Positions 11,827 to 57,900 of a stretch of 64,000 nucleotides of DNA are shown here, piece after piece. Location of the stretch: the NCBI RefSeq assembly GCF_000737065.1, contig NZ_AQRC01000005.1:62001-126000 (forward strand). Direction: 5' to 3'. Numbering within the stretch: the stretch's first letter is position 1; each line of letters begins with the position of its first letter. Both the position numbers and the translations under genes were made by a program. The notes beneath the pieces are model-generated. The model saw only the letters and a list, made by a program, of their open reading frames with translations. It made no database searches and had not been told where the DNA came from. This DNA comes from Thioclava atlantica (GTDB lineage Bacteria; Pseudomonadota; Alphaproteobacteria; Rhodobacterales; Rhodobacteraceae).

Positions 11827-11880
11827 CTTCCTCTTGATCGAAATATCCTCGGGGGGTGTGGGGGGCCGACAGCCCCCCAC
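11827..11880 (-). repeat. Composite 3' element, copy A (after aldehyde dehydrogenase)
   Basis: Read on the minus strand: a perfect 9-bp hairpin GTGGGGGGC / GCCCCCCAC (11858-11880, 5-base loop), then CCCCCCGAGGATATTTCGAT and AAGAGGAAG. It starts 24 bases after the dehydrogenase stop in sense orientation and ends just before the DUF779 start. It lacks the second hairpin seen in most other copies. Likely a terminator or 3'-UTR element. Confidence 0.7.
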
Positions 11881-11903
11881 GCGTCGTCTCGCCAAGCGCG
11901 GCC

Positions 11904-13433
11904 TCAGAAGAATCCGAGCTTGTTCGGATTGTAGCTCACCAGCATGTTCTTGGTCTGCTGGTAGTGATCGAGCATCATCTTGTGGGTCTCGCGCCCGATG
12001 CCGGACTGCTTGTAGCCCCCGAAGGCGGCATGCGCGGGATAAGCGTGGTAATTGTTCACCCAGACCCGCCCCGCCTGGATCTTGCGCCCGAAGCGGTAGC
12101 AGGTATTGGCATCGCGCGACCACACGCCCGCGCCGAGCCCGTAAAGCGTGTCATTGGCGATCTCGAGCGCCTCGTTCTGGTCCTTGAAGGTGGTGACCGA
12201 GACGACGGGGCCGAAGATCTCCTCCTGGAAGACCCGCATCTTGTTATGGCCCTTCAGGATCGTCGGCTGGATGTAATAGCCGCTCGACAGATCGCCGCCC
12301 AGATCGGCGGCCGCCCCGCCGGTGAGCACCTCCGCGCCTTCCTTGCGGCCGATATCGAGATAGGAGAGGATCTTCTCCTGCTGCTCGGAAGAGGCCTGCG
12401 CGCCGATCATCGTGTCGTCCTTGCGCGGGTCGCCCTGGATGATCGCCTGGGTGCGCTTGATCGCGCGCTCCATGAACTGCTCGTAGATATCCTCCTGGAT
12501 CAGCGCGCGGCTGGGACAGGTGCAGACCTCGCCCTGGTTGAGCGCGAACAGCACGAAGCCCTCGATCGCCTTGTCGAAGAAGGCGTCATCCTCGCGGCAG
12601 ACATCCGAGAAGAAGATGTTGGGCGACTTGCCGCCCAGTTCCAGCGTCACCGGGATCAGGTTCTCGGTCGCGTATTGCATGATCAGGCGACCGGTCGTGG
12701 TCTCGCCGGTGAAGGCGATCTTGGCGATGCGCGGGCTCTGCGCGAGCGGCTTGCCCGCCTCGAGGCCGAAGCCGTTCACCACATTGAGCACGCCATCGGG
12801 CAGCAGATCGGCGATCAGCTCGGCGAAGACCATGATCGTCGCCGGGGTCTGCTCGGCGGGCTTGAGCACGACGCAATTGCCCGCCGCCAGCGCCGGGGCG
12901 AGTTTCCACGCCGCCATCAGCAGCGGGAAGTTCCACGGGATGATCTGCCCCACGACGCCGAGCGGTTCATGGAAGTGATAGGCGACGGTGTCGGCGTCGA
13001 TCTCGGACATCGTGCCTTCCTGACCGCGCAGCACGCCCGCGAAATAGCGGAAATGATCGATCGCGAGCGGAATGTCGGCGGCACGGGTCTCGCGGATCGG
13101 CTTGCCGTTGTCCCAGGTCTCGCACACCGCGAGCAGCTCGGCATTCTGCTCCATCCGGTCGGCGATCTTGAGCAGGATATTGGCGCGTTCGGTGGGCGAC
13201 ATCTCGTGGCCCCATTTCGCCTTCGCGGCATGGGCGGCGTCGAGCGCGTCCTCGATGTCGGATGCGTCCGAGCGGGCGCATTCGCAGATCTTCGCGCCGG
13301 TCAGCGGCGTGATGTTGTCGAAATACTTGCCCGCATTCGGCGCCTTGAACGTGCCGCCGATGAAGTTGCCGTAGCGCTCGCGGAAGGGCGAGGTCATGAC
13401 GCCCTTGAATTCGGTTGCCATATCGTTGGCCAT
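11904..13433 (-). CDS. NAD-dependent aldehyde dehydrogenase (AldB/ExaC/AcoD type)
   Basis: 509 residues from [21 protein letters not shown] before the ATG fixes the start. Oxidises an aldehyde to the acid with NAD(+). Seen: [14 protein letters not shown] (cofactor pocket), [23 protein letters not shown], the catalytic Glu in [14 protein letters not shown] and the catalytic Cys in [19 protein letters not shown] is characteristic of the subfamily acting on acetaldehyde and other short aldehydes. DUF779 and AraC neighbours support alcohol or acetaldehyde metabolism. A perfect palindrome lies 108 bp upstream. Confidence 0.93.
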
Positions 13434-13540
13434 TGTCTTCCTCCCAGAGTTTCGCGCCACCCCAATGGGGCGCGTCACGTCTTCGAGGATGGCGACGAGG
13501 CCCGAATGCGCCTAGCCGCCGCACGGCGCTGTGAAGCTCG

Positions 13541-13564
13541 ACCTGTCTCGGCCCCGAGACAGGT
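13541..13564. promoter_or_regulatory. Perfect 11+11 bp palindrome, candidate operator
   Basis: ACCTGTCTCGG and its exact reverse complement CCGAGACAGGT flank a CC dinucleotide. It lies about 108 bp upstream of the aldehyde dehydrogenase ATG and is followed by AGGTGC repeats. Length and symmetry suit a dimeric repressor or activator site rather than a terminator, since no T-tract flanks it. Confidence 0.55.
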
Positions 13565-13625
13565 GCAGGTGCAGAATCCGTTTCCTTGCATGGATCCAGG
13601 GCCCCCACCCGGCTTCGCGCCCCCT

Positions 13626-13664
13626 CCGCTGCGCGGCCCCCAAGGGATCTTCCAAGAGACGAAG
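13626..13664 (+). repeat. Degenerate composite element, inverted partner of copy B
   Basis: CCGCTGCGCGG (4-bp stem) followed by CCCCCAAGGGATCTTCC and AAGAGACGAAG matches the family tail with several changes. It faces copy B head to head with an 8-bp spacer, the same arrangement as the pair at 43309-43413. No G-rich first hairpin is recognisable. Confidence 0.5.
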
Positions 13665-13672
13665 AAAAGGGT

Positions 13673-13737
13673 CTTCCTCTTGATCCAAATATCCCGGGGG
13701 TAAATTTCCGTAAGGAAAGAGGGGGCAGCGCCCCCTC
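13673..13737 (-). repeat. Composite 3' element, copy B (after phoR)
   Basis: On the minus strand: GAGGGGGC-GCT-GCCCCCTC hairpin (13719-13737), an AT-rich second hairpin TTTCC/GGAAA (13705-13718), then CCCCCGGGATATTTGGATC and AAGAGGAAG. Begins 65 bases after the phoR stop in sense orientation. The second hairpin differs in sequence from the other copies but still pairs. Confidence 0.72.
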
Positions 13738-13801
13738 ATCTCCCGTGAATTGTCGCCGTCCGGCGACAGTGAGAGCCGCACTCCCTTCCGTCCAGTGCAC
13801 C

Positions 13802-14860
13802 TCAACCGGCGGGCAGGATCACGCTGAAGCAGCTGCCCTTGCCCTGCTCGCTCTGGATCCGGAACCGGCCGCGATGCCGGGCGACGATATGCTTGACGAT
13901 GGCGAGCCCGAGGCCGGTGCCGCCCTTCTCGCGCGAGCGATGGGTATCGACGCGGTAGAAGCGTTCGGTCAGCCGCGGCAGGTGCTGCGGGTCGATCCCT
14001 TCCCCCTTGTCGATCACGTCGATCTTGTAAGCCGCGCCGCGCAGCACCGGCTCATGCGCGATCGCGCCGATCCTGATGCGCACCTCGCCGCCCTGCCCGC
14101 CATATTTCACCGCGTTCTCGACGAGGTTCGAAAAGACCTGCGTGAGCTGGTCGGGATCGCCCCGAACGGTGAGCGCGCCCTCCTCGCCCTCGCGGATCAG
14201 CGCGACGCCGGAATCCTCGGCGACCTGGCCGAGATTCTGCACCACGCTGCGCAGCACCAGAGAGAGATCGACCTGCGTGGTCGGGCGCACGCGTTCCTCG
14301 CTCTCCACCCGGCTGAGCGAGAGCAGGTCGCCCACGAGCCGGTTCATCCGCGCGGCCTCGCGCTCCATGATCGACAGGAAGCGGTCGCGCGCGGCCGGGT
14401 CGTCGCGCGCCGAGGAGCGCAGCGTCTCGATGAAGCCCATCAGCGCGGTGAGCGGCGTGCGCAATTCGTGGCTGACATTGGCGACGAAGTCGCGCCGCAT
14501 CGCCTCGGCCTCTTCCAGCGCGCCGACATCCTCGAAGCTCGCGAGCGCCGAGGGGCGTTGCAGCGGGCCTTCGGGCGCGGGCGGGAGCGGCACCAGCGTG
14601 ACCATCTGGATCGTCTCTCCCTGCCCCGGCGTCGAGAAGCGCAGCCGCACCGGCTCGGGCCGCGCACCCCGCAGCGCCGCGCCCACCGCCACCCCGAAGC
14701 CCGGCTGGCGCAGCACGGTGACATAGGGTTTGCCGATGATCTGCTCGCCAAGCATGCGCCGCGCTCCGGCATTCGCGAGCGCGACACGCTCGTCGATCCC
14801 GATCAGCAGGACCGCGTGGGGCAGCGCATCGAGAACCGCGCGCAAGGAAGAATCAGCCAT
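13802..14860 (-). CDS. phoR: PhoR-type sensor histidine kinase
   Basis: 352 residues. An N-terminal PAS domain (about 1-110, ALPHAVLLIGIDERVALANAG) and no transmembrane helix, so cytosolic here, unlike E. coli PhoR. The HisKA domain has FVANVSHELRTPLTAL with the phospho-His near residue 131. The ATPase domain shows NLVENAVKYGG, DKGEGIDPQHLPRLTERFYR and GGTGLGLAIVKHI. Sequence is closest to the phosphate-regulon sensor class, but phoB, phoU and pst genes are absent from the flanks, so the assignment of signal is by similarity only. Transcribed alone; a composite repeat element follows the stop. Confidence 0.82.
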   Translation of the reverse strand: MADSSLRAVLDALPHAVLLIGIDERVALANAGARRMLGEQIIGKPYVTVLRQPGFGVAVGAALRGARPEPVRLRFSTPGQGETIQMVTLVPLPPAPEGPLQRPSALASFEDVGALEEAEAMRRDFVANVSHELRTPLTALMGFIETLRSSARDDPAARDRFLSIMEREAARMNRLVGDLLSLSRVESEERVRPTTQVDLSLVLRSVVQNLGQVAEDSGVALIREGEEGALTVRGDPDQLTQVFSNLVENAVKYGGQGGEVRIRIGAIAHEPVLRGAAYKIDVIDKGEGIDPQHLPRLTERFYRVDTHRSREKGGTGLGLAIVKHIVARHRGRFRIQSEQGKGSCFSVILPAG

Positions 14861-15104
14861 ACCTCTCCACCTCTGTTTCGGACCGAGCTTTCGGGAATAG
14901 CAACGGGAGTGTAAAGCTGTTGCGACAATGCGTCTTTTCCCTGTGACCGGTCGCCCCGGCCGCGCCTTTCGCAGATTGCGAGCGAAACTGGTTGTCGCCT
15001 GTGTTGGAGGGCGCTAAACCTAAGCGTGTATTCGACAATTTCGCTCGCGGGTCGAATGAGACGAGGGTCCGCGGTTTCTCCGGCAGTCGAGAGGTTTTCC
15101 GCCG

Positions 15105-15508
15105 ATGTCGCGTCCGCCAAAGTCCACGCAGGCCCTGCGGGCGCTGCTGATCCACCGCCATAAGGGCGCGGATAGCCGCAACCTCCTGCTGGTGGATCCG
15201 GCGCAGGATCTTCCCGCCGCGCTGACCGGGGGCGGCGACCTCTCGCTGACGGTGACGCGGTTCGAGGCGCTCAACCGGAGCTTTCTCGCGCAGGCCGCGC
15301 CAGAGCTGGTTCTCTCGCCGCTTTTCACCGAACGGTTCGATATTCTCGATCTGGCGCGGGTTCTCGTCGATGCGAAATATTGCGGCGCACTGCGCGCCTT
15401 CAGTACGCCCTTGCCGAATTTCGGTGCGATCCGCAAAGAGGTGCGCAGCGAATTCCCGAGGCTGGATTTCGATATTCTCGAAATCCCCTGCGGTTCGGAT
15501 CGCGCGAA

Positions 15509-15512
<4 letters not shown>
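15105..15512 (+). CDS. Conserved-looking hypothetical protein
   Basis: 135 residues, not recognised as a named family. No signal peptide, transmembrane helix or motif. Starts MSRPPKSTQALRALL and contains FTERFDILDLARVLVDAKYCG and a C-terminal FPRLDFDILEIPCG. Coding is supported by its start just after a long leader and by its end: its TAG overlaps the TAA of the convergent carbonic anhydrase gene by two bases. The upstream 245 bp shared with phoR holds both promoters; a weak TTGTCG-N17-TAAACC pair lies at 14992-15020. Confidence 0.7.
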
Positions 15513-16026
<514 letters not shown>

Positions 16027-16030
<4 letters not shown>

Positions 16031-16671
16031 CGGCGTTCAAACTCCCTGTTCAACCCTCGCACGAAATCGTTCAGCCAGACCTGACGGTCGCGCCGCTGGC
16101 GCTCGGCGCTCAGGATCGTGCGCAGCTTCTCCTCCGCCCGGTCGAGATCGTCATTGACCAGAACATAGTCATATTCGGACCAGTGGCTGATCTCGGAAAG
16201 CGATTTTTCCATCCGGCCGCGGATCACCTCGTCGCTGTCCTGGGCGCGACCGCGCAGCCGGCTTTCCAGCTCGGTGATCGAGGGCGGCAGGATGAAGATC
16301 GAGATCACGTCCTTGCCGAGCGCGGAATTGCGGATCTGCTGCCCACCCTGCCAGTCCACGTCGAAAAGCGTGTCGCGCCCCTGCGCCATCGCCGCCTCGA
16401 CCGGGCCCTTGGGCGTGCCGTAGAGATTGCCGAAGACCTCGGCATGTTCGAGCATCTCTCCCGCCATCACCATGTCCTGAAACTCGGCGCGCGACTTGAA
16501 GAAATACTCCACCCCGTCGGTCTCGCCCGGCCGCGGGGCGCGGGTGGTCGCGGAGACCGAGAAGCGCAAGGTCGGGTCCCAGTCCATCAGCCGCCGCGCG
16601 AGGGTCGATTTGCCCGCGCCCGATGGCGAGGACAGGATGATCAGAAGGCCGCGGCGGGTGCTGTCGGGCAT
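16027..16671 (-). CDS. gmk: Guanylate kinase
   Basis: 214 residues from the ATG at 16671, chosen over a GTG nine bases upstream because GGAG sits 8 bases before it; the GTG would overlap the yicC stop. Phosphorylates GMP to GDP. P-loop [14 protein letters not shown], then [21 protein letters not shown] (GMP-binding) and VDWQGGQQI. Middle gene of yicC-gmk-carbonic anhydrase; guaA, which makes GMP, is at 58 kb. Confidence 0.96.
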
Positions 16672-16676
16672 GGGGC

Positions 16677-17603
16677 TCACTCCACGTTCTGGATCTGCTC
16701 GCGCATCTGATCGATCACATGCTTGAGCGCAAGGCCGATCTGGGTCAGCGCCGCGTCATTCGATTTCGAACATAGCGTGTTGGCCTCGCGCACGAATTCC
16801 TGCGCCAGAAACTCGAACTTCCGTCCGACCGCGCCGGGTTCGACCAGCAGGGTCCGCGCGGCCGAGACGTGGACGCGCAGACGGTCGATTTCCTCGGTGA
16901 CGTCATTTCTCATCGCGATGACCGCCAGCTCCTGCAACAGCCGCGCCTCGTCGATTTCCGCCGCGCCCTCCATCACCCGCGCCAGCGCCTCGCGCACGGT
17001 TCGGGCGGTTTCGGGACGGCGGGCTTCCGCGGCGCTCTCGGCCTCGGCCACCAGCGCCGCGATGCGGTCGATCTGGGCGGCGATGACCGCCCCGAGACCC
17101 TGCCCCTCGACCCGACGCATCTCGCAAAACGCCTCGAGGAGCGCCGTGAAATCGGCCAGAAGCGCCTCACGCAGCGGCGCCGGATCCTCGACGGGCGGCG
17201 CGCCATGCTCGATCACCCCGCGCATCGTCACCAGATCGCTTGCCGTTACCGGCGCAAGGTCCAGTCCGCGCTTGCGCGCCGCCTCCTGCGCCGTCTCGAT
17301 CGCAGTGATCGCCGCATCGAGCAGATGCGGGTCGAGATGCAGCGTCTCGGCCTCCGCGCTGCGGGTGAGCCGCAACGAGACCGAGACATTGCCGCGCGCC
17401 ACGCGCCCCGCCACCGCCTTGCGCAGCGCGGGTTCCAGCCCCTCGATCTCGGGAAGTCGCAGCCGCAGGTCGAACCCCTTGCCATTGACCGCGCGGATAT
17501 CCCAGCTCCAGTCATGCCCCAGCCCGCTGCCCCGCCGTGCGGCGAAGCCGGTCATCGAAACGGTTTCATGCGGCGGGCGTATGTCATCCATCGTTTTAAC
17601 CAT
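16677..17603 (-). CDS. yicC: YicC-family endoribonuclease
   Basis: 308 residues; contains [10 protein letters not shown] at about residue 16, [11 protein letters not shown]-like [18 protein letters not shown], and the C-terminal [18 protein letters not shown] and [30 protein letters not shown] regions typical of YicC/YloC. Family members are RNA-cleaving proteins in E. coli and Bacillus. The N-terminus is about 15 residues longer than usual; starts at 17603 or 17591 are both possible. Coupled to gmk, a very common pairing. Confidence 0.93.
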
Positions 17604-17729
17604 TTAGGACTTTCTTTTCCAAACGAGCGGAGAAATGGCGTATTAAGAGTTCAGTAACGATTTCGCTTCGACGGTCAACCGCAAGGGGCCGAAGTGCCAG
17701 AACGGACTGAAGCGGGACATCTGGGGGCC

Positions 17730-17749
17730 CGGGTGGCCATCGCCACCCG
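17730..17749 (+). promoter_or_regulatory. Hairpin in the leader of the PAS_5 gene
   Basis: CGGGTGGC and GCCACCCG form a perfect 8-bp stem with a CATC loop, ending 17 bases before the proposed ATG. It lies next to or over the ribosome-binding region and has no T-tract, so translation control is more likely than termination. Confidence 0.4.
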
Positions 17750-17766
17750 CATTGGGCAGATGGATC

Positions 17767-18450: not shown

Positions 18451-18459
18451 GAGATCATG

Positions 18460-18496
18460 AAAAAGGCCCGGGGGCTTGCGCCACCGGGCCTTTTTT
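18460..18496 (+). terminator. Intrinsic terminator, probably bidirectional
   Basis: AAAAAGGCCCGG pairs with CCGGGCCTTTTTT around a 12-base loop. Located between the convergent ends of the PAS_5 gene and the DAHP synthase, with a T-tract on each strand. Confidence 0.9.
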
Positions 18497-18511
18497 CTCT
18501 TCCAATCGACC

Positions 18512-19882: not shown

Positions 19883-19919
19883 CTGATCCTCCAAAGCATG
19901 GTACCTGTGTCAAAGCGGG

Positions 19920-19948
19920 CTTATAGCCGCGCCCGGCCCAGAGAACAA
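19920..19948 (-). promoter_or_regulatory. Predicted sigma-70 promoter of the DAHP synthase gene
   Basis: On the minus strand TTGTTC and TATAAG are 17 bases apart; transcription would start about 31 bases before the ATG. The -10 box matches five of six consensus bases. Confidence 0.5.
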
Positions 19949-43308: not shown

Positions 43309-43373
43309 AGGGGGGCGCCGCCCCCCTCGCGGCTGCGCCGCTCACCCCCCGGGATATTTCTCTCAAGAGGAAG
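43309..43373 (+). repeat. Composite 3' element, copy C1 (inside ccmA-ccmB gap)
   Basis: Plus-strand order: hairpin AGGGGGGC-GCC-GCCCCCCT (43309-43327), hairpin GCGGC-TGC-GCCGC (43329-43341), tail CCCCCCGGGATATTTCTCTC and AAGAGGAAG. It is antisense to the ccm genes and head to head with copy C2. Architecture is the same as copies E and F. Confidence 0.72.
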
Positions 43374-43384
43374 ACAGCGGCGGG

Positions 43385-43413
43385 CTTCCTCTTGATCCAA
43401 ATATCCCCGCCGG
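43385..43413 (-). repeat. Composite 3' element, copy C2 (tail only, after ccmA)
   Basis: Minus strand: CCGGCGGGGATATTTGGATC then AAGAGGAAG, in sense orientation 35 bases after the ccmA stop. No hairpins. With C1 and an 11-base spacer it forms a long imperfect inverted repeat. Confidence 0.65.
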
Positions 43414-43447
43414 AGGCATCCGACCGCGCCGCTCATGTTGCCGCCGA

Positions 43448-47620: not shown

Positions 47621-47681
47621 CTTCCAAATGCCCGAAATATCCCGGGGGAGGCCGCCAAGGCGGCCGGGGGCAGCGCCCCCC
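47621..47681 (-). repeat. Composite 3' element, copy D (after M20 amidohydrolase)
   Basis: Minus strand: GGGGGC-GCT-GCCCCC hairpin (47666-47680) 7 bases after the stop, second hairpin GGCCGC-CTTG-GCGGCC (47650-47665), tail CCCCCGGGATATTTCGGGC and TTTGGAAG. Sense orientation to the upstream gene; also lies in the yajC leader. Confidence 0.7.
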
Positions 47682-47687: not shown

Positions 47688-48851
47688 TCACCCGAGCGGC
47701 AGCGCGCGCTCGGCCAGACGGGCGAGGAACGAGGCGCCCACGGGCGCGGCCTCGTCGTTGAAATCGTAGCGCGGATGATGGAGCCCGGCCCCGTCGCCGG
47801 TTCCCATGAAGAGATAGGCGCCCGGACGGGTCTCGAGCATGTAGGAGAAGTCCTCCGCCCCCATCTCGCGCGGCGCATCGCGCGAGACGCGCCCCTCGCC
47901 CGCGATCTCCTCGGCGACGCTCGCGGCGAATTCGGCCTCGTCGGGATCGTTGACCGTGGGCGGATAGCCCCGCTCATAGGTGATCTCGACCTCGACCCCG
48001 TAGCCCGCGGCGAGCCCCTCGACGATCGCGCGCAGCCGCGCCTCGGCGAGATCGCGGATGCGCGGCTCGAAGGCGCGAATCGTGGCGCAGAACCAGCCGG
48101 ATTCGGGGATGATGTTCGATGCCGAGCCGGCATGGATCTGGGTGACCGAGATCACCAGCTCGTCCCCCGCCCCGACATTGCGTGACACCACGCTCTGCAG
48201 CGCGCTGACCATGCCCGCGATTGCGACGATCGGATCGATGCATTCCTGCGGCGTCGCCCCGTGCCCACCCTTGCCGCGCACCTTGATCCAGGCCGTGTCG
48301 ACCGAGGCCATGTAAGGGCCGGGCGTGGTGAAGAAATGCCCGAAAGGCAGCCCCGGCGCGTTGTGGATCGCGAAGACGCGGCCGATACCGAACCGCTCCA
48401 TCACGCCCTCGCGCACCATCACCTCGCCGCCGCCGCCCTCTTCCTCGGCGGGCTGGAAGATCAGCGCGACGGTGCCCGCGAAATTGCGCGTCTCGGCCAG
48501 ATAGGCGGCCGCGCCCAGAAGCATCGTCGTGTGCCCGTCATGGCCGCAGGCATGCATCTTGCCCTCGGCGCGCGAGGCATGCTCGGCGCCGGTCTCCTCG
48601 GTGATCGGCAGCGCATCCATATCCGCGCGCAACCCCACGACCGGCCCGTCGCCGCGGCCCCGGATCAGCGCGACGATCCCCGATTGCGCGATCCCTTCAT
48701 GGATCTCGTCCACGCCGATCTCGCGCAGCCGCTCGGCCACGAAACCGGAGGTCTGGTGCAGGTCGAACTCGAGCTCGGGATGCCGGTGCAGCCAGCGCCG
48801 CCACTCGGTCATCTGCGGGCCGAGATCTGCAATTCTGTTGATCACGGGCAT
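47688..48851 (-). CDS. M20-family amidohydrolase (hippurate hydrolase-like)
   Basis: 387 residues. Metal-binding motifs MHACGHDGHTTMLLGAA, QPAEEEGGGG, and a late MGAEDFSYMLE; dimerisation domain in the middle (VDTAWIKVRGKGGHGATPQ). N-terminal HRHPELEFD is typical of the M20D group that removes acyl groups from amino acids (hippurate, N-acetyl amino acids, IAA conjugates). Cytosolic, no signal peptide. Substrate not predictable. Confidence 0.93.
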   Translation of the reverse strand: MPVINRIADLGPQMTEWRRWLHRHPELEFDLHQTSGFVAERLREIGVDEIHEGIAQSGIVALIRGRGDGPVVGLRADMDALPITEETGAEHASRAEGKMHACGHDGHTTMLLGAAAYLAETRNFAGTVALIFQPAEEEGGGGEVMVREGVMERFGIGRVFAIHNAPGLPFGHFFTTPGPYMASVDTAWIKVRGKGGHGATPQECIDPIVAIAGMVSALQSVVSRNVGAGDELVISVTQIHAGSASNIIPESGWFCATIRAFEPRIRDLAEARLRAIVEGLAAGYGVEVEITYERGYPPTVNDPDEAEFAASVAEEIAGEGRVSRDAPREMGAEDFSYMLETRPGAYLFMGTGDGAGLHHPRYDFNDEAAPVGASFLARLAERALPLG

Positions 48852-48922
48852 GGTGGACTTCCCTCGCGCGGATGGTTACGCCGAAAGGCACTCGCATGGC
48901 AGGAGGCAGGAGGCAAGGTGCA

Positions 48923-49765
48923 ATGGCCAAACCCGATGACGCGCTGATCTTCGACGCGGGCGGCGACGCGCCGCATCAGTTCGAGCGGCTGATCGCGATC
49001 ATGGCCTGCCTGCGCGATCCCGAGACCGGCTGCCCCTGGGATCTGGAACAGGATTTCGCCTCCATCGCTCCCTACACGATCGAGGAGGCCCACGAGGTCG
49101 CCGATGCGATCGCGCGCGAAGCCTGGTCGGAATTGCCGGGCGAGCTGGGCGATCTCGCGCTGCAGGTCGTCTATCACGCGCAGATGGCCTCGGAGGACGG
49201 GCGCTTCGATATCGGCGACGTGCTGCGTGCGATCAACGCCAAGATGGTCGCCCGCCACCCGCATGTCTTCGGATCGGAAAGCCGCGAGAAATCGGCCGCG
49301 CAGCAGACCGAGGACTGGGAGCGGATCAAGGCCGCCGAACGCGCCGCGGCGGGCAAGGCCGAGCGGGTGGGCGTGCTCGACGGCGTGGCCCTGGGCCTGC
49401 CCGCGCTGACCCGCGCGATCAAGCTGCAGAACCGCGCCGCACGGGTCGGGTTCGACTGGCCCTCGACCGACGAGGTGCTCGAGAAGATCGTCGAGGAGGC
49501 CCGCGAACTCGAAGAGGCCCGCGACGATCTCGGACCGGTGGAACTGGCCGAGGAATATGGCGATCTGCTGTTCGTGATGGTCAATCTCGGGCGGCATCTG
49601 GGGCTCGACCCCGAAGCCGCCTTGCGCGCCGCGAACCTGAAATTCACCCGCCGCTTCGAACATATCGAAGCGGGCCTCGCCGCGCGCGGCAAGAGCCCGA
49701 AGGAGAGCGATCTGGCGGAGATGGACGCGCTGTGGAACGAGGCCAAGGCGCAGGGCGTGAAATGA
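48923..49765 (+). CDS. mazG: Nucleoside triphosphate pyrophosphohydrolase MazG
   Basis: 280 residues from MAKPDDAL (AAGGTG close upstream; an ATG at 48896 is possible). Two MazG domains: CPWDLEQDFASIAPYTIEEAHEV with PGELGDLALQVVYHAQMA, then DEVLEKIVEEARELEEARDD with ELAEEYGDLLFVMVNLGRHL, each giving the EExxE...ExxD magnesium site. Hydrolyses NTPs to NMPs, for housecleaning and (p)ppGpp-related control in E. coli. Followed by a composite element. Confidence 0.95.
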   Translation: MAKPDDALIFDAGGDAPHQFERLIAIMACLRDPETGCPWDLEQDFASIAPYTIEEAHEVADAIAREAWSELPGELGDLALQVVYHAQMASEDGRFDIGDVLRAINAKMVARHPHVFGSESREKSAAQQTEDWERIKAAERAAAGKAERVGVLDGVALGLPALTRAIKLQNRAARVGFDWPSTDEVLEKIVEEARELEEARDDLGPVELAEEYGDLLFVMVNLGRHLGLDPEAALRAANLKFTRRFEHIEAGLAARGKSPKESDLAEMDALWNEAKAQGVK

Positions 49766-49770: not shown

Positions 49771-49878
49771 GGGGCGCTGCCCCAACCCTCGCCGGATAGC
49801 GAGAAATTACGGTCGCAGAGGGGGCGCTGCCCCCCGCGGCTTCGCCGCTCCCCCCGGGGTATTTCAGTCTAGATGAAG
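49771..49878 (+). repeat. Composite 3' element, copy E (after mazG)
   Basis: An extra short hairpin GGGGC-GCT-GCCCC (49771-49783) begins 5 bases after the mazG stop. Then GGGGGC-GCT-GCCCCC (49820-49834), GCGGC-TTC-GCCGC (49836-49848), and tail CCCCCCGGGGTATTTCAGTC with TAGATGAAG. Sense to mazG; ends 4 bases before the convergent permease stop. Confidence 0.75.
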
Positions 49879-49882
49879 CGGC

Positions 49883-50698
49883 TCAGAGGAAGGCCTTGCG
49901 CAGCATGTTCAGGGCCACCAGCATCAGGAAGACCGCGAAGACGCGCTTGAGCTTCTTCGCGTCGAGACGGTGGGCGAGCGTCGCGCCCCAGGGGGCCGTG
50001 ATCGTGGTCATCGCGATCACGATCAGGAAGGCGGGAATGTTGACGGCGCCGATCGAATAGGGCGGCGCGTCGGCCACCGGGGTCAGCAGGAAACCGATCG
50101 CCGAGGGCAGCGCGATCGTCACGCCGAAACCGGCCGAGGTCGCGACCGCGCGGTGGATCGGGATCCCGTGCAGCGTCTGCATCGGCGTGCCGATCGAGCC
50201 GCCTCCGATCCCCAGAAGCACCGAGAGAAACCCCATCAGCGGGCCGAACCAGGCCCGGAAGATCCCGCCCGGCAGGTGATCGGAGATCCGCCAGCTCGCC
50301 TTGCCGAACATCATGTAGAGCGCGATCGCCAGCACCATCACCGCGAAGATGATCTGCAGCGTCTGCGAGCGCAGCTGATGCACGACGAGAACGCCGATCA
50401 CCGCGCCCACGGCGATCGGGACGACCCATTGCTTGAGGATGACCCAGTCGACCGCACCGCGGCGGTTATGAGCCAGCACCGACCGGACGGAGGTGATGAT
50501 GATCGTCGCGAGCGAGGTCGCCACGCAGACCTGCATCAGATCCTCGGACCCATAGCCCAAGCCGCTGAAGAGATAGAAGAAGGCGGGCACGAGAACGATG
50601 CCTCCGCCCACGCCCAGAAGGCCTGCGAGCACGCCCGCGAAGGCCCCCACGCCCATCAGGATCAGAACCAGCGGCGCGAGCGTCGCGAAATCGAACAT
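49883..50698 (-). CDS. TauE/SafE-family sulfite/anion exporter permease
   Basis: 271 residues, eight or nine helices. Typical opening GAFAGVLAGLLGVGGGIVLVPAF and central inverted copy LMGFLSVLLGIGGGSIGTPM, both with the GxGGG repeats of the family. Substrates in the family include sulfite, sulfoacetate and other organosulfonates; not predictable here because neighbours are unrelated. Confidence 0.92.
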   Translation of the reverse strand: MFDFATLAPLVLILMGVGAFAGVLAGLLGVGGGIVLVPAFFYLFSGLGYGSEDLMQVCVATSLATIIITSVRSVLAHNRRGAVDWVILKQWVVPIAVGAVIGVLVVHQLRSQTLQIIFAVMVLAIALYMMFGKASWRISDHLPGGIFRAWFGPLMGFLSVLLGIGGGSIGTPMQTLHGIPIHRAVATSAGFGVTIALPSAIGFLLTPVADAPPYSIGAVNIPAFLIVIAMTTITAPWGATLAHRLDAKKLKRVFAVFLMLVALNMLRKAFL

Positions 50699-50725
50699 AG
50701 GTGAACCTCTCCGATGAGACCGCGC

Positions 50726-51724: not shown

Positions 51725-51804
51725 GGCGGGCTGTCCCTCATGGACCGGTTTCAGATAGCGCGGCAACCGCCCCCGCGGCGCAAGAAATTCACGATGAATG
51801 GGGG

Positions 51805-51881
<77 letters not shown>

Positions 51882-51890
51882 CTGAGCGCG

Positions 51891-51919
51891 GATATAGAGG
51901 AGGCGGGCGCGGGCCGCAA
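51891..51919 (-). promoter_or_regulatory. Predicted sigma-70 promoter of tRNA-Arg
   Basis: TTGCGG and TATATC, 17 bases apart on the minus strand, end 9 bases before the tRNA 5' end. It sits in the 47-bp gap after the aroB stop. Confidence 0.6.
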
Positions 51920-51928
51920 CGGGAAATC

Positions 51929-53041
51929 TCAGGGGTCGCGGCGGGCAAGCGCGTCGTCGATCACGCCGGCGAGAACCTCGCGCGGGACCTCCGAGGTCAC
52001 GAAGGCCTGGCCGATGCCGCGGGCCAGAATGAACCGCAGCTTGCCGTCGAGCACCTTCTTGTCCTGCGCCATCAGCTCGATCAACGCATCGGTGCCGGGA
52101 AGGTCGCCCTCGATATCGGCGAGATCCACCTTCATCCCCATCGCGCGCAGATGGGCGCGCACGCGGCTCGGCGCCTCCTGCGGACACAGGCCGAGGCGCT
52201 GGCTCAGCTCGAAGGCCAGCGCGCAGCCGATCGCCACGCCCTCGCCATGCAGGAGCCGGTCGGAATAGCCCGTCGCCGCCTCGAGCGCGTGGCAGAAGGT
52301 ATGCCCGAGATTGAGAAGCGCGCGGTCTCCCTCCTCGGTCTCGTCGCGCGCCACGATCTCGGCCTTCATCTCGACCGAGCGTTTCACCGCGTGCAGGCGC
52401 TTGTCGAGATCACCCCCCGCCATCGCCGGGGCGTAGGCCTCGAGCCAGTCGAAGAACTCCGCGTCGCCCAGAAGACCGTATTTCACCACCTCGCCATAGC
52501 CTGCGAGGAAATCGCGCTTGGGCAGGGTCTCCAGCACCCCAAGATCGGCCAGAACCAGCGAGGGCTGGTGAAAGGCCCCGATCAGGTTCTTGCCCTGCGG
52601 CGCGTTGATCCCGGTCTTGCCGCCGACCGAGCTGTCGACCTGCGCGAGCAGCGTGGTCGGGATCTGCACGAAACGCACGCCCCGGCGCAGCACCGCGGCC
52701 GCGAAGCCGACCAGATCGCCGATCACGCCCCCGCCGAGCGCGATCACGATGTCCTTGCGCTCGACCTTCTGCTCGAGCAGCCATTCGACGGTGCGGGTGA
52801 AATGCGGCCAGCTTTTCGTGCCCTCGCCCGCAGGCAGGGTGAGCGCCACCGACTCGATGCCCCCGAGCCCGGCGCGCAGCGCGTCGAGATGCAGCCTCGC
52901 CACGGTCTCGTCGGCCACGATCGCCACCCGGGGCCGGCGCAGGAGCGGTGCGATCTCGACCGCGGCACCCTCGATCAGCCCGGTGCCGATCCGCACCTCG
53001 TAAGAGCGCGCGCCCAATTCGACCGGTACGATTTCACGCAT
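51929..53041 (-). CDS. aroB: 3-dehydroquinate synthase
   Basis: 370 residues from [22 protein letters not shown] precedes the ATG, which overlaps the aroK 3' end by 8 bases. Cyclises DAHP to 3-dehydroquinate with [17 protein letters not shown] (NAD site), [23 protein letters not shown], the Zn ligands in [13 protein letters not shown] and [10 protein letters not shown]. Second shikimate enzyme; the first (class II DAHP synthase) is at 18.5 kb. Confidence 0.97.
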
Positions 53042-53618
53042 CCTTTTCCCCTTCGAACAAACCATCGACCGCGCGCAGATGCGCGACCACCTTTTCCGCC
53101 ATGTCCTGGATCGAGAGCCCCGGTTCGGCCTCCACCGCCACCTGCGCCATCTCGTAATGCGGCATCCGCTTGGCGAGAAGATCGGCGAGGGTCTGTTTCG
53201 GGTTCGGGGTGCGCAGGAGCGGACGGGTATCCTTGTGGCGCACGCGCTGCCAGAGCAGGTCCAGATCGGCCTTGAGCCAGACCGAAACGCCGAGCCGCGC
53301 GATCAGGGCGCGGTTCGCCTCGGAGAGAAACGCGCCGCCGCCGGTGGAGATCACCCCGGGCGGACCGGAGAGCAGCCGTTCGAGCACCTCCGATTCGCGG
53401 GCCCGGAAAAAGGGCTCTCCGTCGCGGGCGAAAATCTCGGACACGCTCATCTGGGCGGCACGTTCGATCTCGTGATCGCTGTCGAGGAAGGGCACGTCGA
53501 GCAGTTTCGCCAGCGCCGTGCCGACCGCGGTCTTGCCCGAACCCATCATGCCCACGAGCACGATCGACCGGTTCGGTCGCCCTTCTTTTCGCGCCTCCTG
53601 CTCCAAGCTGCTCCTCAC
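53034..53618 (-). CDS. aroK: Shikimate kinase
   Basis: 194 residues if started at the GTG at 53618; TTG starts up and downstream are alternatives, and no ATG exists before the conserved core. P-loop VGMMGSGKTAVG, DSDHEIE, EPFFRARE (RxxE), STGGGAF and the lid RPLLRTPNP. Phosphorylates shikimate. Operon aroK-aroB. Confidence 0.94.
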   Translation of the reverse strand: MRSSLEQEARKEGRPNRSIVLVGMMGSGKTAVGTALAKLLDVPFLDSDHEIERAAQMSVSEIFARDGEPFFRARESEVLERLLSGPPGVISTGGGAFLSEANRALIARLGVSVWLKADLDLLWQRVRHKDTRPLLRTPNPKQTLADLLAKRMPHYEMAQVAVEAEPGLSIQDMAEKVVAHLRAVDGLFEGEKDA

Positions 53619-53722
53619 CCTTGTCAATCCCGCGCCTCGGCCCAAATCCGCTCATCGGCGAAGCCTTGCACAAACGTGACGAAGGGCCCCTTGAATGGCG
53701 TGAACTTCCTTGAAATCCCATA

Positions 53723-53728
53723 TATGAT
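53723..53728 (+). promoter_or_regulatory. Possible -10 element upstream of the unknown gene pair before xerD
   Basis: TATGAT matches five of six -10 bases, 74 bp before the first ATG; the -35 region (GTGAAC at 17 bp) is weak. It lies in the 180-bp divergent region with aroK. Confidence 0.3.
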
Positions 53729-53801
53729 CAATGCGAAACCGCAACCAAGAACGGTCCCGCCGCAAGCGACGGACCGCGCAAGACGGCAGAAAAGAGAGAA
53801 A

Positions 53802-53969
53802 ATGGGGCGCATCTTCAAACTCATCGTCATCCTTGTTGTGCTCGGCGCGATCGGCGTGATCGGCTATGCCTATCTGGGCGACATGGGTGCAGACAGCCAG
53901 CAGCAGCATATCGAGGTCACCTTGCCCGACGGGATCGGCGCAGGCGGCGGGGGCACGGGTGCGAACTGA
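53802..53969 (+). CDS. Small membrane protein, unknown function
   Basis: 55 residues, MGRIFKLIVILVVLGAIGVIGYAYLGDM..., one transmembrane helix (residues 5-25) then a short soluble tail QQHIEVTLPDG ending Gly-rich. Strong AAAAGAGAG ribosome site. Its last codons overlap the GTG of the next gene by 11 bases. No recognised family; the coupled arrangement small membrane protein - exported protein - xerD suggests the first two act together. Confidence 0.65.
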   Translation: MGRIFKLIVILVVLGAIGVIGYAYLGDMGADSQQQHIEVTLPDGIGAGGGGTGAN

Positions 53970-55548
53970 TCGCCGCGGCCTCGCGGCAGTCCTTGCCACG
54001 ATCCTGATCGCTTCCCCGGGCGCATCGCTGCGGGCGCAGCAGACGGCCCAACCGGCCGCGACGGATCCGCATGTCCATCCGATGTCCGCGATCGAATGGC
54101 TGTCGGATTCTGTGGCGCAGCCCCCGCGCACGGGCAGCCGGACCGCACCGCCGCTCACCGGGGCGGGCGGGATCGAGAACATCGCCGTGCAATCGCTCGA
54201 CGCGCCCTCGGCCGACACGCTGGGCCTGTTGCCGCCCGCACGCACCGGGCTGCCGGCGAACCTGTGGGGCGCGACTCCGGCCGCCGAGCTTGCGCAGGCC
54301 CTGCGTGAAATGCCGATCGATTTCCTGCCCAGCCTCCACGGTTTGGTGATGACGCTCCTTCTGGCGGAACTCGACCCGCCGCAGGTCGCAGCGCCGGGCC
54401 AGCGTGACGCACTCTTCCTCGCCCGGATCGACCGGCTTCTGGACATGGGCGCGCTCGAACAGGCGCATGCGATGCTGCAGCAGGCCCCCACCACGAGCCC
54501 CGGCGTGTTTCGCCGCAGCTTCGACGTGGCGCTCCTGCTCGGACAGGAGAATCGCGCCTGCCGGATCATCGAGCGCAGCCCCGCCATCGCCCCTTCCTAC
54601 GCGGCACGGATCTTCTGTCTTGCGCGCACCGGGCAATGGGACCTGGCGGAGCTGACCTATGGGACGGGCAAGGTGCTCGGGCAGATCCCCGCCTCGGAGC
54701 AGAACCTGCTCGAGCAGTTTCTCGATCCCGCGCTGGCCGAAGGCGCCGAGGAGATGACGCCGCCCGATCCGGTCACGCCGCTTGCCTACAAGATGATGGA
54801 GGCGATCGGGCAGCCCCTGCCGACCGCCACGCTGCCGCTCGCCTTCGCGCAGGCCGATCTGACCGAGAACAATGGCTGGAAGGCGCAGCTCGAGGCAGGC
54901 GAACGTCTGGCCCGCGCGGGCGTGCTGGATCCGAACCGGCTTCTCGGGCTTTATACCGAGCGCAAGGCCGCGGCCTCCGGCGGGCTCTGGGACCGGGTCG
55001 CCGCGATCACCGCCCTCGACCAGGCGCTGCGCAAGAGCGACTCCGCCGCGGTCGCACGTACCCTGCCCCGCGCCTATGAGTCGATGCGCGCCGAACATCT
55101 CGAACCGGTTCTGGCCGCGCTCTTCGGCGACCAGCTTTCGGGAATGGAGCTTTCGGGCGCGGCCGGACGGATCGCCTATGAGCTGAGCCTTCTGACCCCG
55201 GCCTATGAGGAGAACGCGCGCCTCGGTGCCAAGGCCGATCCGCAGGGCGCGCTGCTTCAGGCGCTCGCGAAGGGCGATACCAGCGGGGTCGACGCGCGCG
55301 ACGGGCTAGGCGAGGCGCTCAAGACGGTCTTCGATGCCGCCCCCGGCGATCCGCCGCAGCGCTATGAGGGCCTTGTTCCCGACCAGCTCGGCCTCGCGAT
55401 CATCCGCGCGATCGGCGATGTCTCGGAGGGCGCGAAGGGGGATTATCCGCGTCTGCAGGACGGGTTGCAGCTCTTGCGGCTCGCGGGGCTCGAAACCGTC
55501 GCCCGGCGGAGCGCGATCGAACTCGTCGTTCTGGAGCGGCGCGAATGA
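53959..55548 (+). CDS. Exported hypothetical protein, alpha-helical repeats
   Basis: 529 residues from GTG (VRTDRRGLAAVLATIL), with a signal peptide (cleavage near LRAQQ, about residue 28). The body is almost all helical and rich in Ala/Leu, with pairs such as RIDRLLDMGALEQAHAMLQQAP and RIFCLARTGQWDLAELTYG that look like TPR/SEL-like solenoid repeats, though no exact motif fits. Two Cys pairs are possible. No catalytic motif. GGGGG upstream of the GTG. Stop overlaps xerD in ATGA. Function unknown; periplasmic location inferred. Confidence 0.75.
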   Translation: MRTDRRGLAAVLATILIASPGASLRAQQTAQPAATDPHVHPMSAIEWLSDSVAQPPRTGSRTAPPLTGAGGIENIAVQSLDAPSADTLGLLPPARTGLPANLWGATPAAELAQALREMPIDFLPSLHGLVMTLLLAELDPPQVAAPGQRDALFLARIDRLLDMGALEQAHAMLQQAPTTSPGVFRRSFDVALLLGQENRACRIIERSPAIAPSYAARIFCLARTGQWDLAELTYGTGKVLGQIPASEQNLLEQFLDPALAEGAEEMTPPDPVTPLAYKMMEAIGQPLPTATLPLAFAQADLTENNGWKAQLEAGERLARAGVLDPNRLLGLYTERKAAASGGLWDRVAAITALDQALRKSDSAAVARTLPRAYESMRAEHLEPVLAALFGDQLSGMELSGAAGRIAYELSLLTPAYEENARLGAKADPQGALLQALAKGDTSGVDARDGLGEALKTVFDAAPGDPPQRYEGLVPDQLGLAIIRAIGDVSEGAKGDYPRLQDGLQLLRLAGLETVARRSAIELVVLERRE

Positions 55549-56498
55549 GCGAGGCGCCTCCCGATCCCCACTGGTTGCCCGCCTTTCTCGAGGCGCAGGC
55601 CGCCGAGGCCGGATCGGCGCGCAACACGATCCTGTCTTACGGGCGCGATCTCAACGACTTCGCGGGGTTTCTTCAGGCGAAGGGATTGAGCTATGCCACG
55701 CTCGCCCGCGCCGATATCGAGGCCTATCTGATCCGCTGCGAAGCAGAGGGGCTCGCGAAATCCACCCGCGCGCGGCGCCTCAGCGCGATCCGGCAGCTCT
55801 TCCGCTTCGCCTATGAAGAGGGCTGGCGCAGCGACAACCCGGCGATCCGCATCTCGGGCCCGGGCCGCGCGCAACGCCTGCCCAAGACGCTGTCGCTGGA
55901 GGAGGTCGAGGCGCTACTGGAAGCCGCGCGCGATCAGGGCCGGTCAATGTCCGAGCAGATCCGCAACCGCTGCCTGATCGAGCTGCTCTATGCGACGGGC
56001 ATGCGCGTGTCGGAACTGGTCTCGCTGCCGGTCTCGGCCGCGCGCGGCGATCCGCGGATGCTGCTCGTGCGCGGCAAGGGCGACAAGGAACGCATGGTGC
56101 CGCTCTCGCCGCCCGCGCGCGAGGCGCTTGCCACCTGGCTCGCCACCCGCGACGCCGCCGAAGAGGACGCCCGCGTCAAGCATCGCGCGGCCCCCTCGCG
56201 CTTTCTCTTTCCCTCGAGCGGCAAGGAGGGCCACCTCACGCGGCAGGGCTTTCATCGGCTGCTCAAGGAGATCGCGGTCGCGGCCGGGATCAGCCCCGCG
56301 AAGGTCACCCCCCATGTGCTGCGCCACGCCTTCGCCACGCATCTTCTACAAGGGGGCGCGGATCTGCGCGCGATCCAGATGCTGCTCGGTCACGCGGATC
56401 TCTCGACCACCGAAATCTACACCCATGTGCTCGACGAGCGGCTGAAGGATCTGGTGCTCGAGCATCACCCGCTCGCCAAACCGCGCACGGGTCCTTGA
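55545..56498 (+). CDS. xerD: Site-specific tyrosine recombinase XerD
   Basis: 317 residues. N-terminal SAM-like core-binding domain (FLEAQAAEAGSARNTILSYGRDL), C-terminal catalytic domain with Arg in YATGMRVSELVSL, Lys in RGKGDKERMVPL, HVLRHAFATHLL (His-x-x-Arg), and LLGHADLSTTEIYTHV carrying His and the nucleophilic Tyr. With XerC resolves chromosome dimers at dif. Housekeeping context and lack of flanking repeats argue against a mobile integrase. Confidence 0.95.
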   Translation: MSEAPPDPHWLPAFLEAQAAEAGSARNTILSYGRDLNDFAGFLQAKGLSYATLARADIEAYLIRCEAEGLAKSTRARRLSAIRQLFRFAYEEGWRSDNPAIRISGPGRAQRLPKTLSLEEVEALLEAARDQGRSMSEQIRNRCLIELLYATGMRVSELVSLPVSAARGDPRMLLVRGKGDKERMVPLSPPAREALATWLATRDAAEEDARVKHRAAPSRFLFPSSGKEGHLTRQGFHRLLKEIAVAAGISPAKVTPHVLRHAFATHLLQGGADLRAIQMLLGHADLSTTEIYTHVLDERLKDLVLEHHPLAKPRTGP

Positions 56499-56529
56499 TT
56501 GCGCCCCGCGCGCAGCCCATAACCAAGCC

Positions 56530-57864
56530 ATGAACAGCTCTCTCGACCTCGCCTTCTGGCTCACCGCCGGTGCCATCATCCTGCTGCTGGCGCTCTCGGC
56601 CTTCTTCTCGGGCTCCGAAACCGCATTGACGGCGGCCAGCCGCGCAAAGCTGCGCTCCGCCGCCGACAAGGGGGAGAGCGGCGCCAAGACCGCGCTTGCC
56701 GTGACCGAGGACAGCGAACGGCTGATCGGCGCGATCCTTCTGGGCAACAACGTCGTCAACATCCTCTCGGCCTCGCTCGCGACCGCGCTGATGACCCGGC
56801 TCTTCGGCCAGTCCGGGGTGGCGCTCGCGACGCTGGTGATGACGGCGCTGGTGCTGATCTTCTCGGAAGTGCTGCCCAAGACCTATGCGATCACCTTGCC
56901 CGAGAAGGTCGCCTCCAAGGTCGCCGCGCCGATCCGCGTCTTCACGCTGCTGCTCGCCCCGATCGTCGAGATCGTGCGCGCGGTGGTGCGCGGCATCCTC
57001 TACGCTTTCGGGATGCGCACCGACAAGAACCAGCACATGTTCTCGATCCACGAGGAGATCGCGGGGGCGCTCGCGCTCGGCCAGTCCGAGGGGACGGTCG
57101 ACAAGGAGGATCGCGACCGGCTGCTCGGCGCGCTCGATCTGGGCAACCGCACGGTCGAGGAGATCATGCTCCATCGCAGCCAGATCGAGATGCTCGATAT
57201 CGAGGACGACCCGGACCAGATCCTGACCGCAGTGCTCTCCTCGCCCCATACCCGCCTGCCGCTCTACAAGGGCGAGCGCGAGAATGTCGTGGGCGTGATC
57301 CATTCCAAGGATCTGCTGCGCGCGGTCGAGAAGGTCGTGCGCGGCGGCGACGGGACGCTCGAGAGCGTCGCCGATCTCGACCTCTCCAAGGTGATGATGA
57401 AACCCTATTTCGTCCCCGAGACGACACCGCTCGACGAGCAGATGCAGGAATTCCTCAAGCGTCGCACCCATTTCGCGCTGGTGGTGGACGAATATGGCGA
57501 TCTGCGGGGGCTGCTGACGCTCGAGGACATCCTCGAGGAGATCGTGGGCGAGATCACCGACGAGTTCGACCCCAAGGGCGAGCGCAGTCTCCGGCCCACC
57601 GAGAGCGGCGACTATATCGTGGACGGCGCGATGACGATCCGCGATCTGAACCGCGAGACCGACTGGACCCTGCCCGATGACGAGGCGAATACCGTGGCGG
57701 GCCTGGTGATCCACGAGGCGCAGACGATCCCGACCGAGGGCCAGGTCTTCTCCTTCCACGGCTTCCGCTTCGAGGTGGTCGCGCGCAAGGACAACCGGCT
57801 CACCCGGCTCAAGATCCGCCCGCTCGTGGCGCGCGAGGATGGGGGCGCTGCCCCCGCGCGCTGA
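56530..57864 (+). CDS. CNNM/CBS-domain transporter-like protein (CorC/HlyC family)
   Basis: 444 residues. N-terminal CNNM domain with three or four helices (LLLALSAFFSGSETALTAASR, LLGNNVVNILSASLATAL, IFSEVLPKTYA), then two CBS motifs (about 205-330) and a C-terminal CorC_HlyC domain (DYIVDGAMTIRDLNRETDW). Relatives handle magnesium or cobalt efflux; older hemolysin names are misleading. The last ten or so codons (EDGGAAPAR) are encoded by the first hairpin of repeat element F, so the C-terminus was probably extended by it. Confidence 0.92.
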   Translation: MNSSLDLAFWLTAGAIILLLALSAFFSGSETALTAASRAKLRSAADKGESGAKTALAVTEDSERLIGAILLGNNVVNILSASLATALMTRLFGQSGVALATLVMTALVLIFSEVLPKTYAITLPEKVASKVAAPIRVFTLLLAPIVEIVRAVVRGILYAFGMRTDKNQHMFSIHEEIAGALALGQSEGTVDKEDRDRLLGALDLGNRTVEEIMLHRSQIEMLDIEDDPDQILTAVLSSPHTRLPLYKGERENVVGVIHSKDLLRAVEKVVRGGDGTLESVADLDLSKVMMKPYFVPETTPLDEQMQEFLKRRTHFALVVDEYGDLRGLLTLEDILEEIVGEITDEFDPKGERSLRPTESGDYIVDGAMTIRDLNRETDWTLPDDEANTVAGLVIHEAQTIPTEGQVFSFHGFRFEVVARKDNRLTRLKIRPLVAREDGGAAPAR

Positions 57865-57900
57865 GACGCGCTCCCCCGGGGTATTTCGGTCCAGGTGAAG
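57841..57900 (+). repeat. Composite 3' element, copy F (overlaps end of CNNM gene)
   Basis: GGGGGC-GCT-GCCCCC hairpin (57841-57855) lies inside the coding sequence, then GCGCG/CGCGC hairpin (57856-57871) whose loop contains the stop TGA, then tail CCCCCGGGGTATTTCGGTCC and AGGTGAAG. Sense orientation. Confidence 0.73.

Follow-up and report, generated by a model that had tools for sequence, protein, structure and literature searches.

A hairpin element with genome-specific tail words and a guide-like small-RNA family, a candidate guide and target-site system mainly of Rhodobacteraceae

The 64,000-nt stretch of the Thioclava atlantica genome analysed here (contig NZ_AQRC01000005.1, positions 62,001 to 126,000; hereafter the window) contains seven copies of a composite element, all of which share one layout: one or two hairpins, the motif GG(A/G)TATTT, three free bases and an 11-nt word. 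We consider these elements to be, with a probability of about 0.75, dispersed functional target sites of a guide-like small-RNA family found mainly in Rhodobacteraceae. Because the guide of the RNA reads as the top-strand word of the element, the complementary strand (the bottom strand) is open to pairing with it, in most cases with a single G.U or G.T wobble. At the level of sequence, this reading draws on a covarying RNA family with its promoter layout, the match between guides and sites, the polarity of their mismatches, the differences between orthologous sites, and the location of the elements at gene ends and in likely operons. The initial annotation of the window had recognized the element but missed both the genome specificity of the tail word and the dedicated small-RNA genes, because the latter lie outside the window; all three element subtypes of this genome have a cognate RNA gene there.

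Small-RNA genes and their match to the element tails

The conserved stretch enclosed by some inverted pairs of elements is a putative small-RNA gene locus. Of 100 genera in the family, 67 contain the core of this RNA as defined by a strict pattern, mostly at 1–4 loci each; the reversed control gave 0. Elements lie beside the genes, either on one side or on both, and most of the sampled genomes with elements possess one to few of the genes. In nine loci searched against Rfam, the RNA had no match up to an E value of 5. The gene consists of a CtrA-like box, a -10-like box, a covarying 5′ stem-loop and the dialect word; some copies also have a visible terminator. Alignment of 81 upstream regions shows TTAA-like half-sites 11 nt apart, as in the CtrA motif, followed by a -10-like position occupied by T in 84% and a purine start. 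The 5′ stem-loop (consensus RCGGU-ACA-GGCN-GGNR-NGCC-GAUG-ACCGY, with the 11–12 nt guide directly after it) is 98.2% paired. Its covariation was 0.237 vs 0.100 in shuffled alignments; none of 500 shuffles was as high, and slid controls reached at most 0.061. When only stem-loop and guide were considered, 69 of 82 RNAs folded as modelled. The loci combine a promoter-like layout with conserved structure, as expected of small-RNA genes. An open reading frame within the RNA was considered and rejected, as it spans 4 to 54 codons or remains open and is not conserved.

One RNA copy occupies a conserved place in several genera, between a GST-like gene and a gene of an acyl-CoA-dehydrogenase cluster (L206, L385, L393, L402, L403; labels assigned by eye). 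Additionally, a fourth RNA copy, degenerate and adjacent to a subtype C tail, is present on contig 7 of T. atlantica (L484:200-260); it is possibly a decaying RNA gene.

At 81 of the 82 RNA loci a flanking TATTT tail was present. The best identity between guide and own tail over 11 nt was 11 in 4, 10 in 57, 9 in 16, 8 in 3 and 6 in 1 of these loci; hence 61 of the 81 reached 10 or 11 positions. Mean guide identity was 9.73 for the own tail vs 7.02 for the tails of other loci, with the own tail beating 95% of the others at 67 of 81 loci, and a control segment of the same RNA matched at most 8 positions. The mismatches were strongly polar: among 98 mismatches in 80 loci, 75 were RNA-G/tail-A, none was RNA-A/tail-G, and all others together amounted to 23. 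Symmetric scoring against both flanking tails (67 pairs) gave 64 RNA-G/tail-A and 0 of the reverse. Pairing of the RNA with the bottom strand, the complement of the tail, through G.U or G.T would produce such an excess.

The match extends to the elements elsewhere in a genome. In five genomes, the tails fitting a guide of their own genome over at least 10 of 11 positions, with wobble counted as a match, were 10/10, 19/21, 13/21, 74/109 and 11/34, and in each of the five the tails agreed best, on mean, with their own guides. The tails left without a guide therefore predict further RNA genes. A search with an RNA model uncovered such a gene for the orphan dialect of genome G373 (L478) and, in T. 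atlantica, for the orphan dialect B (L483), with the stem changed to GGCAG/CTGCC. Within the window, with wobble allowed and always at spacer 3, guides A and C between them account for five tails over 11 nt and guide B for the two B tails over 10 nt; the predicted cognate duplexes range from -13.3 to -15.9 kcal/mol vs -2.2 to -6.9 kcal/mol for non-cognate combinations.

The 11-nt word is constant within a subtype of one genome and differs between genomes. T. atlantica has three subtypes: A (TCAAGAGGAAG), B (TCYAGGTGAAG with GGGTATTT) and C (GCATTTGGAAG). The single tail word AGNNGAAG proposed initially is broken at 47621, where the word is that of the third RNA guide, while the conservation of the tail within one repeated architecture stands. 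A congener contains 47 strict copies; of the 31 that were read, 16 are at orthologous places. Nine of these 16 are subtype A in both genomes, with T here and C there, matching the difference between the two RNA guides; at two of these nine the spacer is unchanged, so they look like substitutions in place. Five more are subtype B here and another subtype in the congener.

Structure, location and spread of the elements

A strict pattern recovered 105 copies in the T. atlantica genome and 0 in reversed form. The spacer between GG(A/G)TATTT and the word is usually 3 nt, with 2–4 nt in some genomes. One hundred copies were read in this genome: hairpin 1, hairpin 2 and a C-run occur in 63, hairpin 1 and a C-run in 11, and a short GCC-TCC-GGC or similar hairpin in 20; 6 were left unclassified. 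The notion that pairing in hairpin 2 is kept while its sequence varies was confirmed in 161 stems: 822 Watson-Crick pairs stand against 7 mismatches, which comprise six bottom-strand G.U, no top-strand G.U and one other. The hairpin-2 loops are mostly TNC/TNNC on the top strand, which makes them GNA/GNNA, closed by a C-G pair, on the bottom strand. GNA-type loops are exceptionally stable in DNA. Loops of the GNA/GNNA/GNAB type occurred on the bottom strand in 87 of 111 hairpins and on the top strand in 3 of 111; two other species had such loops on the bottom strand in 68/89 and 42/57 cases, and on the top strand in 1 and 0. As a control, ordinary terminator hairpins in the fetched loci (n = 144) gave 6 bottom and 13 top. 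The folding-energy difference between the two hairpin strands is small. Mismatch polarity and site hairpins alike suggest that the bottom strand is the functional one.

The lengths of C-run 1 and C-run 2 correlate (r 0.70; class I copies, e.g., window 43310-43349), which suggests alternative pairing or duplication. A switch between C-run and G-run was discarded, as the corresponding value for G-run vs C-run 2 was only 0.06.

Gene context was assessed in loci fetched because of pattern matches, each genome being read in part, with gene calls from a home-made codon-usage caller. Ten genome sets provided 294 copies, those less than 200 nt from a locus end having been skipped before counting; excluding 8 intragenic copies and 5 that lacked a gene on one side left 281. 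These were located in convergent gaps (125), between co-directional genes in sense (97) or antisense (55), and in divergent gaps (4). As background, these loci, which had been chosen for holding elements, have 552 gaps of 40 bp or more, 120 of them divergent (binomial p 3e-24). The preference for gene 3′ ends noted initially thus holds over many copies, and in avoiding promoters the elements resemble the dispersed intergenic palindromes of the repetitive extragenic palindrome (REP) type. Solo copies (n = 192) comprised 81 convergent, 74 sense, 33 antisense and 4 divergent ones. Hence the sense orientation claimed for the element is a real preference (74 vs 33, p 9e-5) but not a strict rule, and the common antisense solos speak against a strictly sense element of the 3′ untranslated region. 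The stop codon of the gene on the tail side lies close to the tail, at a median distance of 11 nt in convergent and 7 nt in antisense solos.

Several sites lie inside likely operons. They occupy the gap between ccmB and an ABC-transporter ATPase gene in the window, the rfbB-rfbD gap of two annotated Ruegeria plasmids, and the terminase-portal gap of a phage-like cluster which, by gene order, size and family, we take to be a gene-transfer-agent cluster. In viral contigs (L513-L584, e.g., L517:1414-1537), collected because they carry the element, a class II element is situated between terL and portal in 44 of the 56 with both hits, and these elements have 35 distinct 14-nt tails. Several of these contigs are 13.4–14.8 kb long, as in gene-transfer-agent clusters. 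Copies inside likely operons make a constitutive terminator unlikely as the whole story. Together with the avoidance of promoter gaps and the abutment to stop codons in both orientations, they leave ordinary terminators and REPs as poorly fitting explanations.

The strict tail was present in 79 of 148 genomes of the order, and the short-hairpin class in 43 of 61 genera. At least 119 stretches matched in a collection of 84,980 species; among the 80 loci listed from it, four were metagenome-assembled genomes labelled Hyphomicrobiales, Pseudomonadota, Alphaproteobacteria and Acidobacteria, and the remaining ones are presumably Rhodobacterales, judged by their titles. Plasmid matches were limited to Rhodobacterales genera (8 records for class I, 23 for class II), and in 6 of 7 annotated class I records no annotated gene lay under the match. 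In our own tally of two scans, the RNA pattern occurred in 37 of 43 genera with the short-hairpin element vs 4 of 18 without it. Three of the six exception genera were searched with the RNA model, and the RNA was found in all of them (G342, G371, G385). Of two congeners without a strict C-run-type element, G391 has the RNA (E 6e-10) and G397 yielded a chance-level match only.

Across 190 genomes of the class, the RNA model matched in 9, of which 3 belong to the same family and 6 to other families. For the matches outside Rhodobacteraceae (G160, G292, G279, G294, G153, G248; E 6e-11 to 4e-4), mis-binning is a possible source. Among five RNA-core matches in viral contigs, those at L511:2509 and at about 4342-4364 of L512 have promoter-like upstream sequence and no obvious flanking element, and may be phage-borne copies; the other three, in coding sequence, look like chance.

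The seven elements of the window

All six loci described initially were recovered, yet they represent seven elements, since 43309-43413 holds two arranged tail to tail (tails 43352-43373 on the plus and 43385-43406 on the minus strand). The tail pattern with up to 2 mismatches gave 7 matches in the window vs 0.32 expected. Hairpin 1 followed by hairpin 2 is general, with the exceptions of 11827 (hairpin 1 only) and 43385 (short hairpin GCC-TCC-GGC), and the hairpin-2 variants are as first listed. Rfam contained no match at the window elements up to an E value of 1, in line with the earlier remark that no named family fits. Identities of the neighbouring genes were checked with Pfam, which supports the names given before, except that the “amidohydrolase” is a Peptidase_M20 and “phoR” can be called only a histidine kinase.

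Element 1 (subtype A, 11827-11879, minus strand) comprises a hairpin at 11860-11878, CCCCCCGAGGATATTT, the spacer CGA and the word TCAAGAGGAAG; its tail, 11827-11848, lies 55 nt past the stop codon of an aldehyde dehydrogenase gene (11904-13478, minus), and hairpin 2 is lacking. Element 2 (subtype A, 13673-13735, minus) follows the histidine kinase gene (13802-14860, minus) with hairpin 1 at 13721-13735, hairpin 2 (TTTCC/GGAAA) at 13705-13718 and the tail at 13673-13694. Ahead of it there is an extra hairpin, GTCGCCGGACGGCGAC (13752-13767, minus). A hairpin close to GTCGCCGGAYGGCGAC, followed by AAT, often occurs 5′ of hairpin 1 (also in L018, L027, L034, L038, L047 and L051) and looks like a separate repeat module.

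Elements 3 and 4 form the inverted pair between the ABC-transporter ATPase gene, ccmA-like by its position, and ccmB. Element 3 (subtype A, 43310-43373, plus) has hairpin 1 at 43310-43326, hairpin 2 (GCGGC/GCCGC) at 43329-43341 and its tail at 43352-43373; element 4 (subtype A, 43385-43417, minus) has the short hairpin at 43409-43417 and its tail at 43385-43406. As both genes are on the minus strand, element 3 is antisense to both of them rather than in sense after a stop codon.

Element 5 (subtype C, 47621-47681, minus), located after the Peptidase_M20 gene (47688-48851, minus), contains hairpin 1 at about 47666-47681, hairpin 2 (GGCCGC/GCGGCC) at 47650-47665 and a tail at 47621-47642 with the word GCATTTGGAAG. 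Element 6 (subtype B, 49820-49878, plus) lies between mazG (48872-49765, plus) and a convergent TauE-family gene (49883-50698, minus), whose end is 4 bp past the tail; hairpin 1 starts at 49820, hairpin 2 (GCGGC/GCCGC) is at 49836-49848, and the tail at 49857-49878 has the word TCTAGATGAAG. In element 7 (subtype B, 57841-57900, plus), hairpin 1 (57841-57855) and hairpin 2 (GCGCG/CGCGC, 57856-57871) both overlap the final codons of a CNNM/CorC gene (56530-57864, plus), and the tail at 57879-57900 carries the word TCCAGGTGAAG.

Proposed function and competing explanations

The RNA would start at a purine just ahead of the conserved stem-loop and continue through the guide into a hairpin and sometimes a recognizable terminator. 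Produced from its genes, probably under CtrA control, it would pair at the sites in the cell, and the outcome may be local control of transcription or of the fate of 3′ ends. Several guides per genome would be possible, each with its matching site subtype, and guide and sites would change together over time. Judging from the sequence comparisons, we give somewhat less than even odds to the RNA binding the bottom strand as DNA. This mode is favoured because a single mechanism would cover both orientations and the sense sites in operons. Ranked after it, and rather doubtful, is pairing with transcripts that run into the element from its tail, a mode limited to convergent and antisense sites. In an extended, tentative form, a CtrA-linked RNA-guided system without CRISPR, TnpB or IS110 parts might use few guides to direct a factor to ~100 DNA sites at gene ends, where pairing with the hairpin-forming strand beside TATTT would set transcription boundaries and tune gene-transfer-agent-like and other operons.

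A number of observations weigh against the elements being guide targets. By a simple scan, a hairpin with a T-run was detected at only 27 of 82 RNA loci; folding of these 27 RNAs, truncated at the T-run, left on average 5.7 of the 11 guide bases unpaired and 0 in two of the RNAs, so the guide may be exposed only in part. In an RNA long enough to include the downstream element, the tail of that element would pair with the guide. The wobble bias toward the bottom strand is smaller in other counts of hairpin 2, one of which gave 1 top vs 4 bottom G.U, and another 3 A.C, 1 T.G and 2 other. Two of the 16 orthologous pairs are subtype A with C in both genomes and show no T/C difference, and for 15 of the 31 congener copies the fetched loci contain no counterpart at the same place. 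The presumed dialect of guide L180 in G335 is matched over 6 nt only, and 23 of the 34 tails of that genome are without an assigned guide. The terL-portal share of 44 in 56 stems from a pre-selected sample. Finally, sense copies in operons (terL-portal, rfbB-rfbD) have no obvious tail-first transcript and are left out by an RNA-RNA mechanism, and a DNA-level mechanism needs a further protein factor.

The closest rival, possible though less probable than DNA binding, is a conventional regulon of a trans-acting small RNA, perhaps with Hfq, in which the RNA pairs with the 3′ ends of mRNAs that read the element from its tail (stop codon, few nt, CUUCNNCUUGN, NNN, AAAUA, hairpins) and alters stability or termination. 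The layout of the RNA is like that of an ordinary small RNA: Hfq-type small RNAs share the short gene, promoter-like boxes, stem-loop and candidate pairing region, and also the terminator that some copies visibly have. The short distance from the stop codon of the tail-side gene to the tail, the bottom-strand excess of G.U (6 vs 0) and the GNA-type loops on the same strand agree with such a regulon as well. However, 74 of the 192 solo copies are co-directional sense and have no tail-first neighbour gene, the repeated terL-portal site among them. Unlike Hfq-type systems, there are tens of near-identical sites per RNA, placed in a standard hairpin element in either orientation, and paralogous guides in one genome.

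We regard it as improbable that the small RNA is a decoy which titrates a protein or another RNA recognizing the word in mRNAs. CsrB titrates CsrA by carrying the same binding word, and here, too, the RNA reads in the sense of the tail, and the sense copies exceed the antisense ones. A protein, however, would have to shift its 11-nt specificity from genome to genome, with several versions per genome, and neither the RNA-G/tail-A bias without the reverse case nor the bottom-strand hairpin preference is expected; it is the mismatch polarity that renders the decoy less likely. A whole-genome search for a complementary RNA with YCAAGAGGAAG returned 70 matches, about 64 of them known elements (reversed control 9), and no clear separate RNA, although a shorter or wobbling complement could escape such a search.

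Just as improbable, in our estimate, is a selfish repeat in which the RNA gene and its flanking inverted elements form a mobile unit and the RNA recognizes its own ends, as the bridge RNAs of IS110 elements do. The inverted pairs, the elements beside the RNA genes, the exchange of subtype B for another subtype at 5 of 16 orthologous places and the DNA-stable hairpin loops would all suit such a unit. A mobile element accounts for the pairs and flanking copies, but not for the in-place tracking of the dialect at orthologous sites. Among the neighbours of 42 RNA loci, clustered and viewed by eye without a family search and with only the starts of some sequences, no recombinase of the IS110 DEDD type or other kind was recognized. 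IS110/IS1111 bridge or seek RNAs are similar in that a segment of a non-coding RNA reads as short DNA sites beside palindromes; here, in contrast, there is one guide segment, and many sites keep their place.

REPs, bacterial interspersed mosaic elements (BIMEs) and REP doublets (REPINs) with their REP-associated tyrosine transposases (RAYTs) likewise are short hairpin repeats scattered over gene ends and intercistronic gaps; they occur in both orientations and in inverted pairs and form genome-specific families. In contrast to these, the tail is matched to a small RNA, and some sites persist at orthologous places across genera. The Y1 transposase (PF01797) matched in 2 of 16 genomes and had no match in the other 14, including T. 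atlantica with its 105 copies, with the E. coli control positive; the earlier suggestion of a mobile repeat is therefore not supported as regards a REP-type repeat mobilized by Y1. The CGTC-type REPs, whose stems of 8–9 bp have AT at positions one and two and whose tails are CCA (PMC3733652), were rejected as well, as the elements do not match them. The DNA uptake sequences of Neisseriaceae also come in dialects, species-specific short words that often form inverted pairs at gene ends; they number roughly 2000 copies, whereas here about 100 copies lie within hairpin elements and are matched by RNA genes. Least likely are ordinary bidirectional terminators or mRNA 3′ stabilizers with an incidental resemblance to the small RNA, for although the gene-end location, GC-rich hairpins and many convergent pairs would suit them, the likely intra-operon sites, the GG(A/G)TATTT in place of a U-run after the hairpins, some copies just past ordinary terminators, the guide match statistics and a tail too conserved for a terminator, as the initial annotation had pointed out, all disagree, and its option of an ordinary termination module finds no support either.

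Searches of the literature on the element, the hairpin, the RNA and related topics, which did not reach most subscription papers, returned no published account. The near-identity of element words and RNA guides points to a guide-RNA and target-site system not previously described, in one bacterial family: a guide family with genome-specific words and tens to a hundred sites, in most sampled genera of an abundant family. If true, this would be a new kind of RNA-guided DNA system, or else an unusually organized small-RNA regulon. Either way, what appeared as a vague repeat would become a testable code, in which each guide predicts its own sites.

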